Assembly: GCF_012102705.1 (NCBI RefSeq)
Contig: NZ_JAAVTA010000006.1
Location: forward strand, 1 to 64,000
Length of the DNA: 64,000 nt
DNA from: Haematospirillum sp. H1815
GTDB taxonomy: Bacteria > Pseudomonadota > Alphaproteobacteria > Rhodospirillales > Rhodospirillaceae
Reading direction: 5' to 3'
Position numbers and translations under genes: made by a program. Position 1 is the first letter of the stretch; each line of letters begins with the position of its first letter. Positions 20,611 through 64,000 of the stretch are shown here, piece after piece. A model generated the notes under the pieces. The model was not told the origin of the DNA. It was given only the letters and a program-made list of their open reading frames with translations, and ran no database searches.

Positions 20611-20708
20611 TTGTGTGTTGACGGGGGGCCGGGAATCCAGCCCTCCGTTGTTTGTTTCTGGCCCCGGGGCGTGGGGTTTGTCACATCCTTTCCAGAAGGG
20701 TATATCGC

Positions 20709-22109
20709 ATGTCGGAAGTCTACGATCTGGTTGTCATTGGCGGGGGGCCGGGCGGATATGTTTGCGCCATCAGGGCGGCTCAGCTTGGCATGAAGGTCGC
20801 GTGTGTCGAAAAGCGCGGCGCCCTGGGCGGGACCTGCCTCAATGTCGGCTGTATTCCATCCAAGGCTCTGTTGCATGCTACACATATGTATGAGCATGCG
20901 GCCCATCACATGGGTGATCTGGGCGTTGACGTGTCCGGTGTCCGGCTGGATCTGCCCAGAATGATGTCCCACAAGGACAAGGTGGTCTCGGACAATACCG
21001 GCGGCATCGAGTTTCTGTTCAAGAAAAACAAGATCACCTATATCAAGGGTGCAGGAAAGATTACCGCACCGGGTACGGTGCAGGTCAGTGGTGCCCAGGC
21101 CCAGACGGTGCAGGCAAAGAATATCGTGATTGCCACCGGGTCGGACGTCATGCCTTTGCCGGGTGTTACTATTGACGAGAAACGTATTGTCTCGTCCACC
21201 GGCGGGCTTTCGCTGTCGTCTGTTCCGGGGAAGATGGTGGTGATCGGGGCCGGGGTGATCGGTCTGGAACTTGGGTCGGTCTGGCGTCGCTTGGGGGCGG
21301 AGGTGACGGTCGTTGAATACCTGGACTTTATTTTGCCGCCAATGGATGGCGAGATCCGCAAGCAGGCCCAGAGAATTCTGGAAAAGCAGGGAATGAACTT
21401 CCGTCTGGGATATAAGGTCACGGGCGCTTCTACGGGCAAGAAGGGTGTATCCCTGAAGCTGGAGCCCTCAAAAGGTGGCGCAGGCGAAACCTTGGATGCC
21501 GATGTGGTGCTGGTGGCCATCGGGCGTCGCCCCTATACCGAGGGACTTGGTCTTGAGAGCATTGGTGTTGTTCCGGATGCTCGCGGCTTTATCGCGGTTG
21601 ATCACGATTATCAGACCAAGGTTCAGGGCGTGTTCGCCATTGGTGACGTGATTGGCGGGCAGATGCTGGCCCACAAGGCCGAGGAAGAAGGCGTGGCCGT
21701 GGCAGAGCTTCTGGCTGGGCAGTCCGGGCACGTCAACTATGGTGCTATTCCGTCCGTGGTCTATACAGACCCGGAGATAGCCATGGTCGGGAAGACCGAG
21801 GAGCAGCTGAAGGAACAGGGTGTGGCCTACAAGGTCGGCAAGTTCCCCTTTACGGCCAATGGGCGGGCACGGGCCAACAACACGACCGACGGGTTGGTCA
21901 AGGTTCTTGCCGATGCAAAAACTGACCGGGTTCTGGGGTGCCACATTGTGGGAGCCATGGCCGGGGACCTGATTCAGGAAGTGGTTGTGGGTATGGAGTT
22001 CGGGGCTTCGGCCGAGGATATCGCCCGTTCCAGCCATGCGCATCCCCAGCTTGGAGAGGCGATCAAGGAAGCCATGCTGGCTGTGGACAAGCGCCCCCTA
22101 CATATCTGA
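20709..22109 (+). CDS. lpdA: Dihydrolipoyl dehydrogenase
   Basis: FAD-dependent E3 component that reoxidises lipoamide, 466 residues. The N-terminal FAD motif VVIGGGPGGYVCAIRAAQLG is followed by the redox disulfide GGTCLNVGCIPSK. An NAD-binding GAGVIGLELGSV lies near residue 185 and the catalytic HAHPQLGEA near the C-terminus. The start at 20709 follows AGAAGGG; an in-frame start 19 codons earlier lies in a GC-rich leader without homology. Last gene of the block, ended by a strong terminator. Confidence 0.96.
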   Translation: MSEVYDLVVIGGGPGGYVCAIRAAQLGMKVACVEKRGALGGTCLNVGCIPSKALLHATHMYEHAAHHMGDLGVDVSGVRLDLPRMMSHKDKVVSDNTGGIEFLFKKNKITYIKGAGKITAPGTVQVSGAQAQTVQAKNIVIATGSDVMPLPGVTIDEKRIVSSTGGLSLSSVPGKMVVIGAGVIGLELGSVWRRLGAEVTVVEYLDFILPPMDGEIRKQAQRILEKQGMNFRLGYKVTGASTGKKGVSLKLEPSKGGAGETLDADVVLVAIGRRPYTEGLGLESIGVVPDARGFIAVDHDYQTKVQGVFAIGDVIGGQMLAHKAEEEGVAVAELLAGQSGHVNYGAIPSVVYTDPEIAMVGKTEEQLKEQGVAYKVGKFPFTANGRARANNTTDGLVKVLADAKTDRVLGCHIVGAMAGDLIQEVVVGMEFGASAEDIARSSHAHPQLGEAIKEAMLAVDKRPLHI

Positions 22110-52022: not shown

Positions 52023-54728
<2,706 letters not shown>

Positions 54729-55793: not shown

Positions 55794-56441
55794 TCATTTT
55801 CCGACTGCTGCGGGCATGGGGAAGGCCCGTGCCGGGTTCCCCGATGCCGTTAACTTTGGCCCGACATGTGTATAGACAACGGAACCCGCAGCAACGCGCC
55901 CATGATTTCCTATCTGGCATCGTGCTGTTACAACGGCCCCTGATCCAATCAGGACGCAGTGACCCATTTCAACCCACCCATTGAGTACACTGTGTGGGCC
56001 AAGGGTTGATCCGTCGCCAATTCTGGTGTCATGACCTATGGCCGCGTGGGTATTGGCCAGCACATGTGCCCCCAGGATGGCTCCGGTTCCTATGGTGACA
56101 AATGGTGCGATGATGCAACCTGGACCCGGTTGGATTCCAGGCGCAAGCCATGCCAGCGGATGCACAAGCGGCGGGGCGAACAGGGCGCCCCGGTCGTGTA
56201 GTCGCTGTGCAAGGGAAAGGCGGCTGTCTGGGTCACCCAACGCAACAACGACCCTGTCGCCCTGCAAGGGCTTCCATTGGTCTATGGGCTCGGGCGGCGG
56301 CAGGGCAAGACCCGCTATATCGGGCCTTGCCCCCGTGTCATCCAGAAAAAGGACAGGAATCTGGAAGCCCGGGCACTGGCTGGCGTACACGGCCACTTCA
56401 CGACCAAGGCTGCCTGCACCAACAATAATCAGGCGCTGCAT
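55794..56441 (-). CDS. NeuD/PglD-type acyltransferase (hexapeptide repeats)
   Basis: 215 residues. The N-terminal Rossmann-like part (LIIVGAGSLGREVAVYAS, then VVVALGDPDSRLSLAQRL) precedes a left-handed beta-helix of hexapeptide repeats (from about residue 95), and the catalytic histidine is in HAAIGHDTRIGD near 138. Such enzymes acylate aminosugars (PglD) or sialic acids (NeuD). It is the last gene of the four-gene minus-strand cassette. The acyl donor is likely acetyl-CoA or the ACP encoded upstream; which one is an inference. Confidence 0.85.
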   Translation of the reverse strand: MQRLIIVGAGSLGREVAVYASQCPGFQIPVLFLDDTGARPDIAGLALPPPEPIDQWKPLQGDRVVVALGDPDSRLSLAQRLHDRGALFAPPLVHPLAWLAPGIQPGPGCIIAPFVTIGTGAILGAHVLANTHAAIGHDTRIGDGSTLGPHSVLNGWVEMGHCVLIGSGAVVTARCQIGNHGRVAAGSVVYTHVGPKLTASGNPARAFPMPAAVGK

Positions 56442-56461
56442 GCTTTTTCCCTTTTATTGCG

Positions 56462-57220
56462 TCAGATCACCATGCCTCCGTCGATGCCCAGTGTTTGACC
56501 TGTAATGTACGATGCGGCATCAGATACCAGAAAGCAAACGGCGTTGGCGACATCATCGGGTGTACCTGGCCGCCCCATCGGAATGCTGTTCATGTGATTT
56601 TGTCGCGTTTTTTCATCCAGGTGTTCTGTCATGGCTGTATCGATGAAGCCCGGCGCTATGGCATTGACCCGTATGTGGTCACGTCCCAGTTCCTTGGCAG
56701 CAGACAACGTCATGCCTATGAGCCCTGCCTTGGCCGAGGCATAGGCAACCTGTCCTGCATTACCGCGTAGCCCGATAATCGAGCTGATTGTAACCACAGA
56801 ACCCCCGCTTCTTCCGCGGCGCATCAGGCGGCTGGCCGTCTGCAGGTTCAAGAGGGCAGACCCCAGGTTGGTCCGTAACATATGTTCCATACTGTCAGGA
56901 CTGATCATGCCCAGTCTGGCATCGTCCAGAATGCCAGCGTTGTTGATCAGAATGTCCAGTCGTTTGCATCGGGTATCAATTATCCTGTACAGGTCGGATA
57001 CAGCTTTTGGGTCGGCAGCATCTGAAAGCAGGGCATGACAGTTCTGTCCTGTCTCTGCGCGGATTGCCGCAGCTGTTTCATCCAAGGTTTCCTGGGAATG
57101 TCGTCCTGTGATGATGACTTGTGCCCCGGATCGAGCCAAGGACTTTGCAATGGCTTGGCCAATGCCACGGCTTCCCCCCGTGACAAGGGCAACTTTGCCT
57201 GACAGATCAGCGCGATACAT
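56462..57220 (-). CDS. FabG-like 3-oxoacyl-ACP reductase (SDR)
   Basis: 252 residues. NADPH motif TGGSRGIGQAIAKSLA is near residue 14, NNAGILDDARL near 88, the catalytic serine in TISSIIGLRGNAGQ near 140 and YASAKAG near 155, and the family end is ITGQTLGIDGGM. The start at 57220 lies inside the ACP gene end, an overlap of 14 bases, so the two are coupled. This points to a dedicated 3-oxoacyl-ACP reductase, not the housekeeping fabG. It is 20 bases upstream of the acyltransferase gene. Confidence 0.9.
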   Translation of the reverse strand: MYRADLSGKVALVTGGSRGIGQAIAKSLARSGAQVIITGRHSQETLDETAAAIRAETGQNCHALLSDAADPKAVSDLYRIIDTRCKRLDILINNAGILDDARLGMISPDSMEHMLRTNLGSALLNLQTASRLMRRGRSGGSVVTISSIIGLRGNAGQVAYASAKAGLIGMTLSAAKELGRDHIRVNAIAPGFIDTAMTEHLDEKTRQNHMNSIPMGRPGTPDDVANAVCFLVSDAASYITGQTLGIDGGMVI

Positions 57221-57452
57221 CGATGCCGTGCCGCTCAAGAATCTCGATGGCTTTGTCAAAGCTCGATAGTTCGATGATGTCCTGTGTTTCCATCATGAAT
57301 TGAAATGCATTCTCTATAGCAGCGACTAGCTGCATATGCCCGACAGAATCCCACGTGGGTACTGCGCGATAGGCTAGGGAATGGATATCGATGCCTTCGG
57401 GTAAGTTCAGGCTGTGCAGAAATGTGTCAATCAAACGACGATGGGCAGACAT
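57207..57452 (-). CDS. Acyl carrier protein
   Basis: 81 residues with the phosphopantetheine serine in WDSVGHMQLVAAIENAF, close to the DSL pattern but with valine in place of leucine. Divergence from the housekeeping AcpP and position between an aminotransferase and a FabG-like gene mark it as a specialised carrier. It lacks a malonyl-CoA or ketosynthase partner in the window. Confidence 0.87.
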   Translation of the reverse strand: MSAHRRLIDTFLHSLNLPEGIDIHSLAYRAVPTWDSVGHMQLVAAIENAFQFMMETQDIIELSSFDKAIEILERHGIDVSR

Positions 57453-57507
57453 ATGTCAGGGTGTCCTTCTTTTGTATCTGGTGCATATGACTCGTTCATG
57501 CTGTGGG

Positions 57508-58623
57508 TCATTCCTGACTGACGTGTTCGCAGGCTGTATTTGCGATGCGCTGTATCGTTTCGTGATCCATGTCTTCGGAAAAAGGAAGCCCGAGTGTACT
57601 GCGTGCCAGATGCTGTGCGACAGGCGTGTCGTATTCCGAGAAGGATGCGAACGCGGTTTGCTCCGGCAAGGGACATGGCCACCAGCGCCGGGTTTCAATG
57701 CGTGCCCTTGCCATATCCCTCTCCAGGTTTTCTATGACATCGGGATTTGCTGATACCAGGCATGTAGAGGTAATCCATTCCTGCCCCCATCCGGGAAGCA
57801 GGCTTATGTCATCGACCGTGGACAATGCACGGCGCATGGCTTGGGCGACGCTGTATTGACGGGACCGGCGTTCTGGCCATTCCTCCAAAGCCGCCAAGCC
57901 TACGGCTGCCTGATACTCGCTGAGCTTGCCATTGATCGCGATCCGTTCTGCATTGCGCATCCCTAGGTACCCGAAATTGCCACAACAGGCAGCAGCACAA
58001 CAGAACGCAGCGTCATGTGACACGATAAAACCACCTTCCCCGATACCAAAGCATTTGGTGGCGTGAAGGCTGACAATTTGCGGGATATGTGTCATACGCA
58101 GGCTGTCAAACCCTGATGCAGAGTCAATGACGACGGCAATGTTGTGATTGTCTTGCAGGTCTTCCCAGGCTGCTGGATCCAGTGGTTGTCCAAAGGCCCT
58201 GACAGGCATGGCTGCGCGCAAGGGGGGGGTATCCTTGTGGCGGCTGTGTGCTGCGGCCAGCACGGAATCCGGAGTGATAGTCCAGCTATTCTGGCTGACA
58301 TCCAGCAGTACAGGTTCCATGCCGGCAGCCAGGACAGCATGGGCGCAGGCCGGAAAGGCCCAGGCCGGAACGGCGCACGCCGAAGGCCGTGGCAGATCCA
58401 AAGCCAGCAGCGCCATGGTCAAGGCTGCTGTTCCACTGCTGGCAAGGACGATCGTATCAGGATGGGTACCAAGACAGGACGCAAGGTTGGCACGGAACAG
58501 ATTGGCCAGTGGACCGTGGTTGGAATAGATGCGCGTTGCATCGATTTGTTTCAGCCATGGAAGGAGATGTTCTGTCCGTGGAAGGCAAGGGCGAAGGACC
58601 GGGACGCTGTCAGGGAAAGACAT
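57508..58623 (-). CDS. DegT/DnrJ/EryC1/StrS-family aminotransferase
   Basis: 371 residues, PLP-dependent. Near the N-terminus TRIYSNHGPLANLFRANLA matches nucleotide-sugar aminotransferases, LASSGTAALTMALLAL is the cofactor phosphate site, AFG-to-DSASGFDS holds the Asp, and the Schiff-base lysine is in SLHATKCFGIGEGGF near residue 187. These enzymes make 3- or 4-amino sugars on UDP- or dTDP-sugars for LPS or flagellin glycans. It is the first gene of the cassette; no sugar dehydratase is nearby, so the substrate must be made elsewhere. Confidence 0.87.
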   Translation of the reverse strand: MSFPDSVPVLRPCLPRTEHLLPWLKQIDATRIYSNHGPLANLFRANLASCLGTHPDTIVLASSGTAALTMALLALDLPRPSACAVPAWAFPACAHAVLAAGMEPVLLDVSQNSWTITPDSVLAAAHSRHKDTPPLRAAMPVRAFGQPLDPAAWEDLQDNHNIAVVIDSASGFDSLRMTHIPQIVSLHATKCFGIGEGGFIVSHDAAFCCAAACCGNFGYLGMRNAERIAINGKLSEYQAAVGLAALEEWPERRSRQYSVAQAMRRALSTVDDISLLPGWGQEWITSTCLVSANPDVIENLERDMARARIETRRWWPCPLPEQTAFASFSEYDTPVAQHLARSTLGLPFSEDMDHETIQRIANTACEHVSQE

Positions 58624-58819: not shown

Positions 58820-61800
58820 ATGCGCCTTATTAGTGGTTACACTTTGGAATCATGCCTCCATGCTGGACGTATACATACAGTATGGCGCGGTCGGCGTGAT
58901 AGTGATGCCCTTGCTGTTGTAGTTAAATATATCAACACCGGCCTGCCGTCCCTGGATGCCGTCGAGCGTTTGCACCGCGAGTATCGGCTTCTTGTCCGTT
59001 TGGGGGGGACTGTAACGCCCCCGGCTGTCGATTTTCTGGAAGATCAGGCTGGCGTTGTTCTCGTTATGGCCGATACCGGTGCCCGGACATTGGCAACCGA
59101 GATCTCGCGTGGTCCTTTTGACCGTACGACATTCATTGATACATCGATCGGGCTTGTGCGTGCGCTGTCGTATCTGCATGCGGCAGGCCTTCTGCATCGC
59201 AATGTGTCAACCGTCAATGTCCTTCTTGATCATGATGGTACCGTACGCCTGGCTGACCTGGATGCGGTTCTGGACCGGACGGATCCGGCGACATTTCCCT
59301 TGCCTCCCGAACTGCCGCAAATGCGTTCTGTGCATGGTGAAGGTCGCGGGCCTGTCCGTCCGGATGATTTCCGTAATGACTACTATGCGCTCGGTTGCGT
59401 TCTTTTTGAGATGCTGACGGGGAACCCGGTGCGCTCCGGCTCTTCGTCGGTTCAGGTTGCCTTGCGCAGTCCGGGTATTTCACGGTCGTTGGCCGCTATT
59501 GTACTCAAGTTGCTGGCTCCGGCACCCGAGGACCGATACCAGAGTCTGGTTGGTCTGGAGGCTGACCTTCTGGCATGCCGGACATCTTCTGCTTCCCCTG
59601 TGTCTGCTACGGATACGGCATCGCGTGCGGGAGGGTTCCACCCCGGTCGCTTTGATCGTTTTGAACGGTTTGCCCAGCCCAGTCGCTTGTATGGACGATC
59701 ACGCGAAATCACGATGCTACGCCGCTGTCGCGATAATGTTCTTAATGGCGAGGGTGGTTTTGTCATGGTCTGCGGACCGGCCGGGATTGGTAAGACAACC
59801 TTGGTAAATGAGGTATTCCCGCTTTCCGGTCATTTGATGGCTGTCATACTTGCCCGCTTTGGTGGACGCGAGAGCCGGTCACCCCATGGTGTTCTGGCAG
59901 AGGCCTTCTCGGAGTTTGTTGCTGCTCTGCTGGGGGGCGGAGAGTCTGATTTGCATGCGGCCCGCGCCCGTCTTGAGGCTTTGCCAGCGGATTATCTCGG
60001 GGTTTTGCTGGATCTGGTGCCTGACCTTGCCTTGATTGTTGGTCGCCGTCCTTTGCCTGATCCTCTTCCGCTCCGTGAGAACCAGGCGCGGTTGTTCCGT
60101 TCTGTTCTACGTTTCCTGCAGGCTGTTTCTGGTCCATCCAGACCTCTGGTTCTGGTCATGGACGATTTGCATGAAGCGGATTCCTCCAGTATCGCCTTGG
60201 TGCGCTATATTCTGGTCGAGGGTGACCTGCGCCATTTACTGGTTGTTGTCGCGTGGCAGGAAGATGCGGTGGGTGCCAATCATCCTGTTTCATCCTTGTT
60301 GCGTCGCAGTGACCGTAACGGCAGCATGCCACCTCTTGTGGCGCTTGGCGCCTTGTCGGTTGATCATGTCGTTGCCCTGCTGACAGATATGTTTGGGGGT
60401 GCTCCATCAGGTATAGAGGAGCTGGCCAACCTTCTTATTGTCCACAGCGGGGGGAATCCATTCTGGATTCACACGCTGTTGCGTATCTTGAATGACCAAG
60501 GGAAAATTATACTGGACCGTACCACATGGACGTGGTCTTGGGATGGTGCTGTTCTTGGCGAATACCTGTCTGCTCACGATCCCCGCGATGCCCTGCATCA
60601 GGCCATTGATGATCTTGGTGCAGAGTGTTGCAAGATTTTGATAACGGCGGCGTGCCTTGGATCTTTTGTATCCATGGATCTTTTGACCCGGGTTGTACAC
60701 CTTGCTCCCGCTGTTATTCTCGAGCGTCTTGGTATTGCCCTGGAGCGTGGCGTCCTGCTTTTGCCTCATGCTCCTGTTCCTGATCCGGATGGCGTTCATG
60801 GTGTTCCCTATCTGATATTCAGTCACCACCTTGTTCGTGATGCCGTTGTTTCCCTGATGTCGGAAGAGGAGCAGGCGCTTCATCACCAGATGATTGGTTT
60901 GACCCTGTGTCAGGAACTGGGTACGGATGCTCCCTCTGTTCTTTTATTTACAGCGCTGGATCATGTGCGTGCCGGCCATATAGAGCCGGATGACCCCCGG
61001 CTTGGGGGGCGTCTGGCCGAGCTGGAGCACGAGGCAGCCCGGCGTGCTGCTGCCTTGGCTGCCTATGCTGTGGCTTATGATCATGCCGTCTCTGGTATCG
61101 ACAGTCTTGGACCGGATCCGTGGCAGTCTTACCCTATTCTGGCCCATGATCTTTTTCTTGCGCAAGCGGAGTCAGCTTGTGCACTGGATTTCAGGGACAG
61201 TCTGCAACACGCGGCGGATGCCTTGCTTGCCGGGACAGGAGATGTCGCGGCGGCAGCACCGGCTCTGGAGTACCGTATTTTTTCCCTTGCTGCAGAAGGC
61301 AACCGGGCAGAAGCTATGGCTGTTGCCGTTTCTGCTCTTGCTTCCATGGGCCTGAATGTTCGGCCGGATAGCAGCTGGTTTGGCCGTGTGCTGACCAAGA
61401 TTCGACTGTCTTGGCTTCTTCCTCGTTTGATGGCGACAGAACCCCGTGCAAATTCTGATGCCAGTCGCTCACTGGATGCTGCCGTGGGGCTTCTGTTTAC
61501 AGCAGCAACGGCTTGTTTCCCATCCGGGCCATCCCTGTCTCCGCGGGCTGTTACCGTGCTTGTCCGGCTTGCGCTGGACAGTGGGACGCCGGGATCTCTT
61601 GCTGCCGCACATGCATCGGCAGTTATGCAGGTTGCCAGCGAGGGGCGTATCCGCCTGGCTGAAAGTCTGGCCCGTCGTACAATCCGCTTTATTGCCTCCC
61701 TGCCCTCGGGGATGATGCGGGTTCGGGCCGAGCTGGCTGCGCGTTGCCTCGGGCTGCATTGGGGAGAGAACTTGCATGCAGCCCGCGATGCGTTGCGTGC

Positions 61801-64000
61801 CTGTGCTGCCGAGGCAGGCCGTATCGGAGACGATGGCTCCGTTGTCATGGCCATGGGGCTTTCTGTTGAGCTGGCTTTCTATAATGGTGGATCTTTGCCC
61901 CAGCTGGCTTCTGAAACCGCAGGAACCCTTGATTTCTGCCAGCGTACGGGAAGCCGTGACTTTCGCCCCTGGTTGATGACGGTTCAGCGTACCTGCCGTC
62001 TCTTGATGCAGGACAGCCTTGTATCTGCCGATCTTCCCGGGCTTCTTGAGGAGGAACGTGCCTTTCTGGAGCGTCTTTTCAATTCGGCTCATCCTGCGTT
62101 GGCAGGGGGGGCAGGTATTGTTGTGCTGTTTCTTGCAGTCATCTGTGGCGAATATGGTCATGCCCTGGAGTTTGCGCGTCGTATTGCGGCCGTTGCACGC
62201 CGTATCGAGGGGACACTATCTGTTGCCATTTATGACTGGCTCTACATTCTGACGATTCTGAACAGTCGCAGTGTTAGCGAATCCGAACGGCGTCTGGCAC
62301 TGCGGCGCTTCTTGCCCCTGATGCAGGAGCGGGCCGATATCGGTCCGGTGAACCATCTGCAACGATTGTTGCTGGTCGAGGCCGAAGTTGCCCGCGTATC
62401 GTTCCGCCTGACAGTGGCCGAGGGCCTGTATGCCAAAGCCTTCCAGACAGCAGCAGATAACGGTATTTATGCTGACGAAATCCTGATTTGCCTTATGGCG
62501 GCATCCTTTCATGATGGGCAACGCCAGTCCCGTATTGCCTTGTCATGGCGGCGCCAAGCTCTGGATGTAGCACGCAGTTGGGGAGCGGAGGGACTGGTAT
62601 CCCTTTTGCGCAGCCGTTGGGTTGATTTGCGTGATGATGTGGGAGAGCGTCCTGGACGGCCGGTCAAAACATCCCGTGAGGGAGGTCTTGATCTTGCGGC
62701 AGCCATGCGGGCTGCGCGTGTTATTTCCGGCGAGCTTCAGCGATCGGTCCTGCTGGAGAATATTCTGCGGATTACAATGGGTGCTGCAAGTGCCAGCCGT
62801 GGGTTGTTATTCCTGAGGGGAGGCGATGGCTGGGCTATCGAGGCTGAAAGTGATGCCTCAACAGCGCGGGTGGATAGTATCCGGCGACCGGTTGCTGTAA
62901 CTGGGGATCCGGGGCAGAATGATGTTGCGATGCTGTTCAGTCCGGCTGTTTTTGCCTTGGCGGAGAGCACAGGTGAACCCGTGCTGCTGGATGATGCGAC
63001 GAAAACGGGTCCGTTCGTTCTGGATCCCTATATCAGTCATACCCAGACACGTTCCTTGCTGTGCATGCCCCTCTCAAAAGGTGGAGCACCCGGTGGAATG
63101 CTGTGGCTGGAGCATGCCCGGACCGCTGGCCTTTTTACACCGGCCCGGATGGAGTTCTTGCACTATCTTGCAGCACAGGCTGTTGTTGCCCTGGAGAATG
63201 CAAGGCTTTACCAGCACCTGTCCGCCCTGAACAGTGATCTTGAGACCCAAGTGGCCGAACTGGCCAGAACGCTTGGTCGCCAGAGCCGGTTGGTGGATGC
63301 AACCCTGGAATCCATACCCGATGCGTTGATTGCCTGCGATCCTGAAGGACGACTGGTGGCCTGGAACCGCCGGGCCTGTGATTTGTTCCGTATTCCACCG
63401 GGTTTGCGACGACGGGGGACACCCCTGTCATCTGTTATGGAAGCTGCCGTTGCTCCGGGTTCTGCGGATGCGGATGCGGTGCGTCTTCTGGAGAGGGGGG
63501 GGCGCCCGCAGGGTGACGGGGGCCCGGAGATGGAGAGTGCTGACCTTGTTTTTGCTGATGGGCGGATACTACGGGTCCGGCGGCAGGTGATGCCTGGCGG
63601 GGGAGAGGTCCTGATTTTCAGGGAAGTCACCGGCGAGCTGAAGCGCGAGCAGGAACTGGAAACGGCACGCACTGCAGCAGAGCGTGCCTTATCTGATTTG
63701 CGCAGCGCCCGCCACGACCTGATCCAGGCAGAAAAGATGGCATCCCTGGGTGAACTGGTGGCCGGCGTTTCCCACGAGATCAATACCCCGGTTGGTGTGA
63801 CCCTGACTGCCGCTTCTTTTTTGATGGAGCGGGCCAATGTGATCAACCGCCAAATGGCATCAGGGGTGTTGCGCAAATCCGAGTTCGAACAGTTTGTGGC
63901 GCAGGCCACGGAAACGACGTCCCTGATGGTGGCAAATATCCAGCGGGCGGCAGATCTGATCAACAGCTTCAAACAGATTGCTGTCGATCGGAGCGGGGGT
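58820..64000 (+). CDS. Giant hybrid sensor: pseudokinase, ATPase, GAF, PAS, histidine kinase (cut by window end)
   Basis: The frame is open from ATG 58820 to the window end (1,727 codons) without a stop. Residues 1-255 form a serine/threonine-kinase fold: VVVKYI has the ATP lysine (36), but HRN (126-128) stands where HRD is expected and ADLDAV (145 onward) replaces DFG, so catalysis is doubtful. A P-loop ATPase follows with GPAGIGKTTL near 319 and LVMDDLHEAD near 444, then a long helical region. A GAF domain (about 1290-1440), a PAS (about 1490-1600) and HisKA with the phospho-accepting histidine in GVSHEINTP (1652) follow. The catalytic ATPase part is beyond the window. Related multidomain kinases are known in cyanobacteria and others. 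GGGGAG lies about ten bases before the start. Confidence 0.9.
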   Translation, partial: MRLISGYTLESCLHAGRIHTVWRGRRDSDALAVVVKYINTGLPSLDAVERLHREYRLLVRLGGTVTPPAVDFLEDQAGVVLVMADTGARTLATEISRGPFDRTTFIDTSIGLVRALSYLHAAGLLHRNVSTVNVLLDHDGTVRLADLDAVLDRTDPATFPLPPELPQMRSVHGEGRGPVRPDDFRNDYYALGCVLFEMLTGNPVRSGSSSVQVALRSPGISRSLAAIVLKLLAPAPEDRYQSLVGLEADLLACRTSSASPVSATDTASRAGGFHPGRFDRFERFAQPSRLYGRSREITMLRRCRDNVLNGEGGFVMVCGPAGIGKTTLVNEVFPLSGHLMAVILARFGGRESRSPHGVLAEAFSEFVAALLGGGESDLHAARARLEALPADYLGVLLDLVPDLALIVGRRPLPDPLPLRENQARLFRSVLRFLQAVSGPSRPLVLVMDDLHEADSSSIALVRYILVEGDLRHLLVVVAWQEDAVGANHPVSSLLRRSDRNGSMPPLVALGALSVDHVVALLTDMFGGAPSGIEELANLLIVHSGGNPFWIHTLLRILNDQGKIILDRTTWTWSWDGAVLGEYLSAHDPRDALHQAIDDLGAECCKILITAACLGSFVSMDLLTRVVHLAPAVILERLGIALERGVLLLPHAPVPDPDGVHGVPYLIFSHHLVRDAVVSLMSEEEQALHHQMIGLTLCQELGTDAPSVLLFTALDHVRAGHIEPDDPRLGGRLAELEHEAARRAAALAAYAVAYDHAVSGIDSLGPDPWQSYPILAHDLFLAQAESACALDFRDSLQHAADALLAGTGDVAAAAPALEYRIFSLAAEGNRAEAMAVAVSALASMGLNVRPDSSWFGRVLTKIRLSWLLPRLMATEPRANSDASRSLDAAVGLLFTAATACFPSGPSLSPRAVTVLVRLALDSGTPGSLAAAHASAVMQVASEGRIRLAESLARRTIRFIASLPSGMMRVRAELAARCLGLHWGENLHAARDALRACAAEAGRIGDDGSVVMAMGLSVELAFYNGGSLPQLASETAGTLDFCQRTGSRDFRPWLMTVQRTCRLLMQDSLVSADLPGLLEEERAFLERLFNSAHPALAGGAGIVVLFLAVICGEYGHALEFARRIAAVARRIEGTLSVAIYDWLYILTILNSRSVSESERRLALRRFLPLMQERADIGPVNHLQRLLLVEAEVARVSFRLTVAEGLYAKAFQTAADNGIYADEILICLMAASFHDGQRQSRIALSWRRQALDVARSWGAEGLVSLLRSRWVDLRDDVGERPGRPVKTSREGGLDLAAAMRAARVISGELQRSVLLENILRITMGAASASRGLLFLRGGDGWAIEAESDASTARVDSIRRPVAVTGDPGQNDVAMLFSPAVFALAESTGEPVLLDDATKTGPFVLDPYISHTQTRSLLCMPLSKGGAPGGMLWLEHARTAGLFTPARMEFLHYLAAQAVVALENARLYQHLSALNSDLETQVAELARTLGRQSRLVDATLESIPDALIACDPEGRLVAWNRRACDLFRIPPGLRRRGTPLSSVMEAAVAPGSADADAVRLLERGGRPQGDGGPEMESADLVFADGRILRVRRQVMPGGGEVLIFREVTGELKREQELETARTAAERALSDLRSARHDLIQAEKMASLGELVAGVSHEINTPVGVTLTAASFLMERANVINRQMASGVLRKSEFEQFVAQATETTSLMVANIQRAADLINSFKQIAVDRSGG

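Follow-up and report, generated by a model that had tools for sequence, protein, structure and literature searches.

Sugars on flagellin can affect motility and immune recognition, and the sugar of the Burkholderia cenocepacia flagellin glycan is reportedly Qui4N(3-OHBut), Qui4N denoting viosamine. A review that also cites a paper on B. cenocepacia flagellin defines 4,6-dideoxy-4-(3-hydroxybutanoylamino)-D-glucose in a legend (PMC12355684). In Pseudomonas syringae pv. tabaci 6605, a viosamine island comprises vioA, vioM, vioT, vioS, vioB, vioR, and acp and has homologues in P. aeruginosa PAK; flagellin lacks modified viosamine in mutants without vioR and, according to an earlier study cited there, in mutants without vioA, vioB, or vioT, and the authors inferred both the transfer of N-(3-hydroxy-1-oxobutyl)-viosamine and a flagellin product, N-(3-hydroxy-1-oxobutyl)-2-O-methylviosamine (PMC3927599). 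Here, we describe a compact four-gene cassette in a 64,000-base stretch of the Haematospirillum sp. H1815 genome (the window; bases 1-64000 of contig C21, which is 142 kb long; the genome measures 2.27 Mb and has a listed completeness of 100%). On balance, we lean toward the view that its enzymes make a deoxythymidine diphosphate (dTDP)-4-(3-hydroxyacyl)amino-4,6-dideoxyhexose for flagellin, in the manner of vioA, vioB, vioR, and acp.

Comparison with described systems

Like the cassette, the P. syringae island brings together an aminotransferase, an acyl carrier protein (ACP), a 3-oxoacyl-ACP reductase, and a VioB-type acyltransferase, a likeness of gene roles rather than of direct alignment (PMC3927599). 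Several features of that type of pathway recur in Haematospirillum (an aminotransferase with a pyridoxal phosphate [PLP] lysine, a dedicated ACP, a dedicated reductase, a VioB-like acyltransferase, and RmlA/RmlB); a counterpart of vioS, the 3-ketoacyl-ACP synthase III (KAS III) gene, was not recognized beside the cassette, and neither was one of vioT or vioM. The group II polar flagellin island of Aeromonas carries genes for an ACP, a 3-oxoacyl-ACP reductase, and an adenosine monophosphate (AMP)-dependent synthetase, with luxE and luxC, between pse genes; it resembles the Haematospirillum locus in its ACP and FabG-type reductase, its nearby pse genes, and the fact that no ketosynthase is named in the available excerpt (PMC7874193). 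However, no AMP ligase, LuxE, or LuxC was found beside our cassette among the called genes, an AMP ligase and a LuxE being encoded instead on contig C4. In Dickeya zeae, vioA, a gene with a maltose O-acetyltransferase annotation, acpP, and fabG stand in a row upstream of fliC, although within a larger cluster that includes transketolase, luxE, fadD, and glycosyltransferase genes; here the likeness is one of annotation, not sequence (PMC7575072). Enterobacterial flagellin islands with Acp, LuxE, LuxC, FabG, and aminotransferases are likewise described in another report (PMC4875605).

Overlapping gene assortments have already been reported from P. syringae, Aeromonas, and Dickeya, and the cassette represents a dispersed form of a pathway type already known. 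What differs here is that no KAS III or glycosyltransferase was recognized beside the genes, that the rml genes are dispersed, and that the lineage is another. The initial annotation of the window had suggested a separate, new minimal unit. That suggestion is not supported in view of these published assortments, the dehydratase, PseC, and flagellin genes just past the window edge, and the RmlA and RmlB genes elsewhere. Our findings carry the Pseudomonas vioA/acp/vioR/vioB scheme over to the Rhodospirillales and suggest that the scheme can occur where no KAS III is linked and the sugar-nucleotide genes sit on different contigs. The four proteins also offer a compact in vitro set for the use of acyl-ACP by VioB-type enzymes. 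The genus Haematospirillum includes H. jordaniae, which has been reported from human infections; in the open-access literature, we found no paper treating both Haematospirillum and glycosylation.

Layout and conservation of the cassette

The four genes are as follows.

57508-58623, minus strand: DegT/DnrJ/EryC1/StrS sugar aminotransferase (VioA role), 371 aa, with a PF01041 match and Lys190
57207-57452, minus strand: private ACP, 81 aa, with a WDSVGHM motif and candidate phosphopantetheine residue Ser36
56462-57220 (from ATG), minus strand: FabG-like 3-oxoacyl-ACP reductase (VioR role), 252 aa, with TIGR01830 and PF13561 matches
55794-56441, minus strand: NeuD/VioB-like hexapeptide sugar N-acyltransferase (VioB role), 215 aa, with TIGR03570 and PF00132/PF17836 matches

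Along the minus strand, the order is aminotransferase, ACP, FabG-like reductase, and acyltransferase. The end of the ACP gene overlaps the start of the FabG-like gene by 14 nt (the longest open reading frame [ORF] of the latter begins at a TTG at 57259), and the remaining intergenic gaps are 55 nt and 20 nt. Gene calls come from a simple ORF caller, and unscanned, uncharacterized neighbors were named by eye. The same four genes occur in identical order in a second genome, that of Haematospirillum sp. H4485, at 90.0 to 91.3% protein identity, and synteny between the two extends over flagellin, pseBCFG, an orphan gene, a kinase gene, the cassette, and SecA. Between these genomes, the ratio of nonsynonymous to synonymous substitution rates (dN/dS) is 0.198 for the aminotransferase, 0.070 for the ACP, 0.154 for the FabG-like protein, and 0.177 for the acyltransferase. 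Set against SecA (0.022), flagellin (0.039), PseB (0.100), and PseF-PseG (0.176) in the same genome pair, these values place the cassette under purifying selection yet among the faster genes. Pfam matches, synteny, and dN/dS rule out a chance run of ORFs and bear out the initial description of four co-oriented genes, two of them overlapping. A plasmid search returned 69 records, every one below 60% identity.

Assignment of the four proteins

The aminotransferase matches PF01041 at 161.7 bits (Pfam). Lys190 (codon 58054-58056), the putative PLP lysine judging by the motif of the family, is invariant in both sets of aligned sequences (11/11 and 24/24). A family profile run against the Protein Data Bank (PDB) scored highest on 3ju7, titled a putative aminotransferase (251.9 bits), followed by DesI (196.5 bits) and the rest at no more than 162.3 bits. 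The AlphaFold model (predicted local distance difference test [pLDDT] score, 92.6) likewise superposed best on 3ju7 (Z 43.0 over 356 residues at 2.1 Å). In the genome itself, the only other locus returned by a search with this aminotransferase was PseC.

The ACP was recognized by its WDSVGHM motif, whose Ser36 (codon 57345-57347) is conserved without exception in the 13 aligned relatives, and the top PDB match of its profile is a putative ACP (E 8.7e-6). It has no Pfam match; the PP-binding model detects 7 of the 13 members but not the cassette ACP, which counts against its membership. The FabG-like protein scores 265.8 bits on TIGR01830, under the cut-off of 297.75, and 213.5 bits on PF13561, and carries the cofactor and catalytic motifs GGSRGIG, NAG, and SYK. 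We rejected the idea that these two are housekeeping genes: a separate AcpP (C12:180526) and a separate FabG (C12:180980; TIGR01830, 310.3 bits), both over their cut-offs, sit together at 180.5 to 181.7 kb of contig C12, which is consistent with a dedicated ACP in the cassette.

The acyltransferase scores 150.8 bits on TIGR03570 (NeuD), under the cut-off of 160.8, and matches PF00132 and PF17836 in Pfam. Its closest match in the PDB is VioB (7txp), both for the family profile (140.3 bits, runner-up 103.9) and for the single sequence (77.5 versus 56.0 bits); the incomplete title of that entry gives the ligand as TDP-4-amino-4,6-dideoxy-D-g... His137, invariant in 10 of 10 aligned sequences, is a candidate catalytic histidine, an assignment made by analogy with PglD. 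The four roles originally assigned (aminotransferase, ACP, FabG-like reductase, and NeuD-like acyltransferase) are thus supported, with VioB as the best profile match of the last.

Proposed pathway

Two sugar-nucleotide genes lie on other contigs.

C20:53354-54238: RmlA, 464.2 bits (equivalog cut-off, 360.65)
C18:16643-17713: RmlB, 481.1 bits (equivalog cut-off, 365.1)

Together, RmlA and RmlB would supply dTDP-4-keto-6-deoxyglucose, which the aminotransferase would aminate, most likely at C4, to give dTDP-viosamine (Qui4N) or its 4-epimer. The FabG-like protein would act on a short 3-oxoacyl chain (acetoacetyl being the likeliest) carried by the private ACP and reduce it to 3-hydroxyacyl-ACP, from which the VioB-like acyltransferase would transfer the 3-hydroxyacyl group to the sugar amine. 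Attachment of the acylated sugar to flagellin or to the flagellin glycan would then fall to a glycosyltransferase whose gene lies elsewhere. The acyl group probably originates in the general fatty-acid machinery, although alternative loading through the AMP ligase and LuxE or the KAS III-like genes of contig C4 may occur. We find the general fatty-acid enzymes the more parsimonious origin because the C4-type ACP (42% identity) was not found in the second species, H4485, which nevertheless retains the cassette.

A PF00908 search of the genome for RmlC gave no match, whereas 11 of 14 control genomes do match. The dTDP-4-keto-6-deoxyglucose made by RmlA and RmlB would thus have no exit to rhamnose, and we rejected the rhamnose pathway as their use. 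The single cupin scanned, on contig C12, matches PF14667 and PF07883.

Distribution and linkage in relatives

A survey of 317 genomes of the order yielded 17 with the aminotransferase (E 1e-50 or better), and in 10 of these all four genes lie within about 6 kb; the relatives concerned include Haematospirillum sp. H4485 (with the same order), Telmatospirillum sp. J64-1, and a Rhodospirillales metagenome-assembled genome. (C, G, and L numbers are our labels for contigs, genomes, and loci, and five genomes bear two: L074 is G011 [H4485], L075 is G003, L083 is G198, L118 is G205, and L122 is G220.) Of the remaining seven, G003 has the aminotransferase and ACP, after which the contig ends, and six are without a complete cassette. 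Our BLAST table took in 16 of the 17, the H1815 genome as a 5.8-kb stretch; the other, G183, is a 7.6-kb contig on which the aminotransferase alone was seen.

Flagellin lies within 10 kb of 7 of the 10 complete cassettes and some 12 kb from those of the two Haematospirillum genomes; none occurs in the 20 kb of G221. RmlA (at least 45% identity) is near 7, RmlB near 2, an AMP ligase near 5, LuxE near 3, and a tetratricopeptide repeat (TPR) glycosyltransferase-like protein near 6, self-matches being included where a genome supplied the query (RmlA and RmlB from G198, the TPR glycosyltransferase from G193, and LuxC from G205). The resemblance to flagellin-glycosylation loci proposed initially is supported by these relatives, in which the genes have flagellin, and in many cases RmlA, close by. 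With a single query, which covered the KAS III type alone among ketosynthases, the stretches read gave a KAS III-like match in none of the 10. The motif pattern of the FabG-like protein is matched in 9 of the 10, the unmatched one being G221.

In the BLAST table, acyltransferases with at least 46% identity are accompanied by the ACP and FabG in 10 of 10 loci of the order, versus an ACP of at least 40% identity in 0 of 14 loci for those at 36% or less. Pairwise distances among the ten cassettes correlate (Mantel test) most closely for FabG and acyltransferase (r = 0.96) and at 0.78 and 0.79 for the ACP with FabG and acyltransferase, respectively; for the aminotransferase with the other three genes, r is 0.59 to 0.68. 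Common descent by itself also increases such correlations. In genus g86, G193 and G195 share 88% identity in FabG and 77% in the acyltransferase but 43% in the aminotransferase, so the aminotransferase looks exchangeable. Across five g86 loci (L045, L046, L048, L049, and L053), FabG identity is 80 to 95% and acyltransferase identity 72 to 87%; aminotransferase identity is 42 to 52% in 9 of 10 pairs and 76% in the tenth.

In the wider aminotransferase family, most loci are without the three partner genes, and the full set occurs in 3 of 80 named loci (out of 176), all three among the ten cassettes above. Locus L134 (Rhodospirillales) has the aminotransferase, ACP, FabG, AMP ligase, and LuxE, with no acyltransferase match in its 13.4 kb. 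The same aminotransferase family adjoins loci of Caulobacter and Brevundimonas (Caulobacteraceae; L101, L140, and L150) that hold two KAS III-like genes, a short-chain dehydrogenase/reductase (SDR), a more distant NeuD-like acyltransferase, and a Rieske-like gene; in L101 and L140, but not in the third, a small ACP was also called. These loci represent an alternative, different cassette that has ketosynthases.

A class-level search of 385 evenly drawn genomes found the ACP subfamily in 11, including our own, and 7 of the 10 other loci were read. L178 is the only one with all four kinds of gene and flagellin, and L177 and L183 have FabG and ACP with no acyltransferase match.

Contrary evidence and alternative explanations

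Several observations weigh against the synthesis of an acylated 4-amino sugar for flagellin. The aminotransferase reaches no NCBIfam equivalog cut-off, its top score being 97.6 of 650 bits for DesI. Structural scores on the predicted model do not separate enzymes for different sugars: after 3ju7 the matches are nearly tied, those ranked 2 to 30 spanning Z 39.8 to 38.1, with DesI (2po3) at 39.7. Among these, 3-amino-sugar entries are mixed with 4-amino-sugar ones, and we rejected the fold as proof of the aminated carbon. The fold model of the acyltransferase (pLDDT 73.2; top Foldseek E 2.6e-3) is too weak for judging the pocket, and since VioB is named an acetyltransferase, likeness to it is no demonstration of an acyl-ACP donor. 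In Haematospirillum, pseBCFG rather than rml are the sugar genes closest to the cassette, and the cassettes of G198 (NeuB-, PseF-, and PseG-like) and G195 (NeuB- and PseF-like) have nonulosonate-type genes nearby as well. No flagellin glycosyltransferase was identified in the genome, where the TPR glycosyltransferase-like protein of relatives gave a 24% match in the TPR region and Maf was not searched. Outside the order, finally, the ACP is less tightly tied to the acyltransferase and FabG: in L182, the ACP occurs with a 41% acyltransferase and no FabG or aminotransferase match, and in L181 a 30% acyltransferase adjoins a 40% ACP.

The strongest rival turns on the genes that follow on contig C21 past the window edge.

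C21:64585-65688: orphan gene beside the pse genes, 367 aa, no Pfam match, conserved in Haematospirillum sp. H4485
C21:66073-68196: PseF-PseG fusion, 707 aa, PseG part passing its cut-off
C21:68196-69413: PseC, passing its cut-off
C21:69438-70502: PseB, passing its cut-off
C21:70816-71736: flagellin, 12.2 kb from the cassette

The acyltransferase may stand in for an absent or unrecognized PseH, acylating the PseC product toward a 3-hydroxyacyl pseudaminic acid, with the cassette aminotransferase making something else. PseB, PseC, and PseF-PseG, which pass cut-offs or hold domains that do, lie 7.5 to 12 kb away, and no protein of the genome exceeds the PseH (TIGR03585) cut-off, the best reaching 26.6 of 93.1 bits. 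That model says little under its cut-off, however, because 13 of 14 control genomes match it and only 1 passes. By eye, the C-terminal tail of PseF-PseG resembles a degenerate GNAT domain, a further point for this explanation, as are the nonulosonate-type genes near the G198 and G195 cassettes. Yet the cassette carries its own aminotransferase, VioB is the closest match of the acyltransferase, and RmlA accompanies most of the complete cassettes, whereas a PseB match accompanies only that of the second Haematospirillum (PseC and PseF-PseG being outside the query set). We consider a PseH substitute unlikely. More doubtful still is a broader version, in which a portable ACP-FabG-acyltransferase core is combined with exchangeable aminotransferases, so that the sugar changes while the acyl group stays, and the Haematospirillum core additionally replaces PseH to 3-hydroxyacylate pseudaminic acid; this strikes us as improbable.

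Two other explanations are weaker. The acyltransferase may use acetyl coenzyme A (acetyl-CoA), leaving the ACP and FabG-like pair to serve another acyl product, such as the lipid-like group proposed for LuxE-type flagellin islands. The seven class-level loci read all place the ACP subfamily with an AMP ligase and LuxE, six of them without a cassette-type aminotransferase, and PDB entries for PglD, PglB, and VioB are titled acetyltransferases or acetyl-CoA complexes; against this, the ACP and FabG accompany every acyltransferase of the clade in the order, and their distances track that of the acyltransferase (r = 0.79 and 0.96). We think it rather unlikely that acetyl-CoA is the donor. N-acylated Qui4N is also known from O-antigens, and the RmlB gene adjoins polysaccharide-type genes on contig C18, so a destination in lipopolysaccharide or exopolysaccharide has to be weighed; with flagellin less than 13 kb from the cassette in 9 of 10 genomes, our own included, we hold this to be quite unlikely. 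The acylated dTDP-4-amino-4,6-dideoxyhexose for flagellin is the reading that we prefer.

Neighboring genes and other loci

Around the cassette, inspection by eye of the genes called between 47 and 80 kb of the contig revealed no KAS III gene, and no glycosyltransferase was recognized among those between SecA and PseF-PseG. The initial remark on the lack of a nearby dehydratase, glycosyltransferase, or ketosynthase is correct inside the window. Past its edge, the PseB dehydratase lies on the same contig; as PseF-PseG, PseC, PseB, and flagellin follow there, the apparent lack of a dehydratase is partly an effect of where the window ends.

Contig C4 (1-11303) encodes a LuxE cut by the contig end, an AMP ligase, an AAC-like protein, two ACPs, an SDR, KAS III-like proteins, a FabZ-like dehydratase, an acetolactate-synthase-like thiamine pyrophosphate enzyme, and a NeuB-like synthase. 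The one KAS III-like gene scanned scores 193.3 bits against a cut-off of 249, the others having been named by eye, and the NeuB-like synthase scores below both the NeuB and PseI cut-offs. Contig C18 also carries, at 20677-20968 and some 3 kb away from RmlB, short RmlA-like fragments (one contains a stop) that are probably the remnant of a second RmlA gene.

On one side of the cassette, past small ORFs, lies SecA (52023-54728, named by eye). On the other, a divergent giant sensor gene begins at 58820 and continues to the window end at 64000, with protein kinase (Ser/Thr), AAA, GAF, PAS, and HisKA matches in the family scan. In Rhodospirillaceae bacterium BRH_c57 (L075), a relative with 34% identity likewise diverges from the aminotransferase gene beside it, and because of this similar arrangement the pairing of kinase and aminotransferase may be regulatory.

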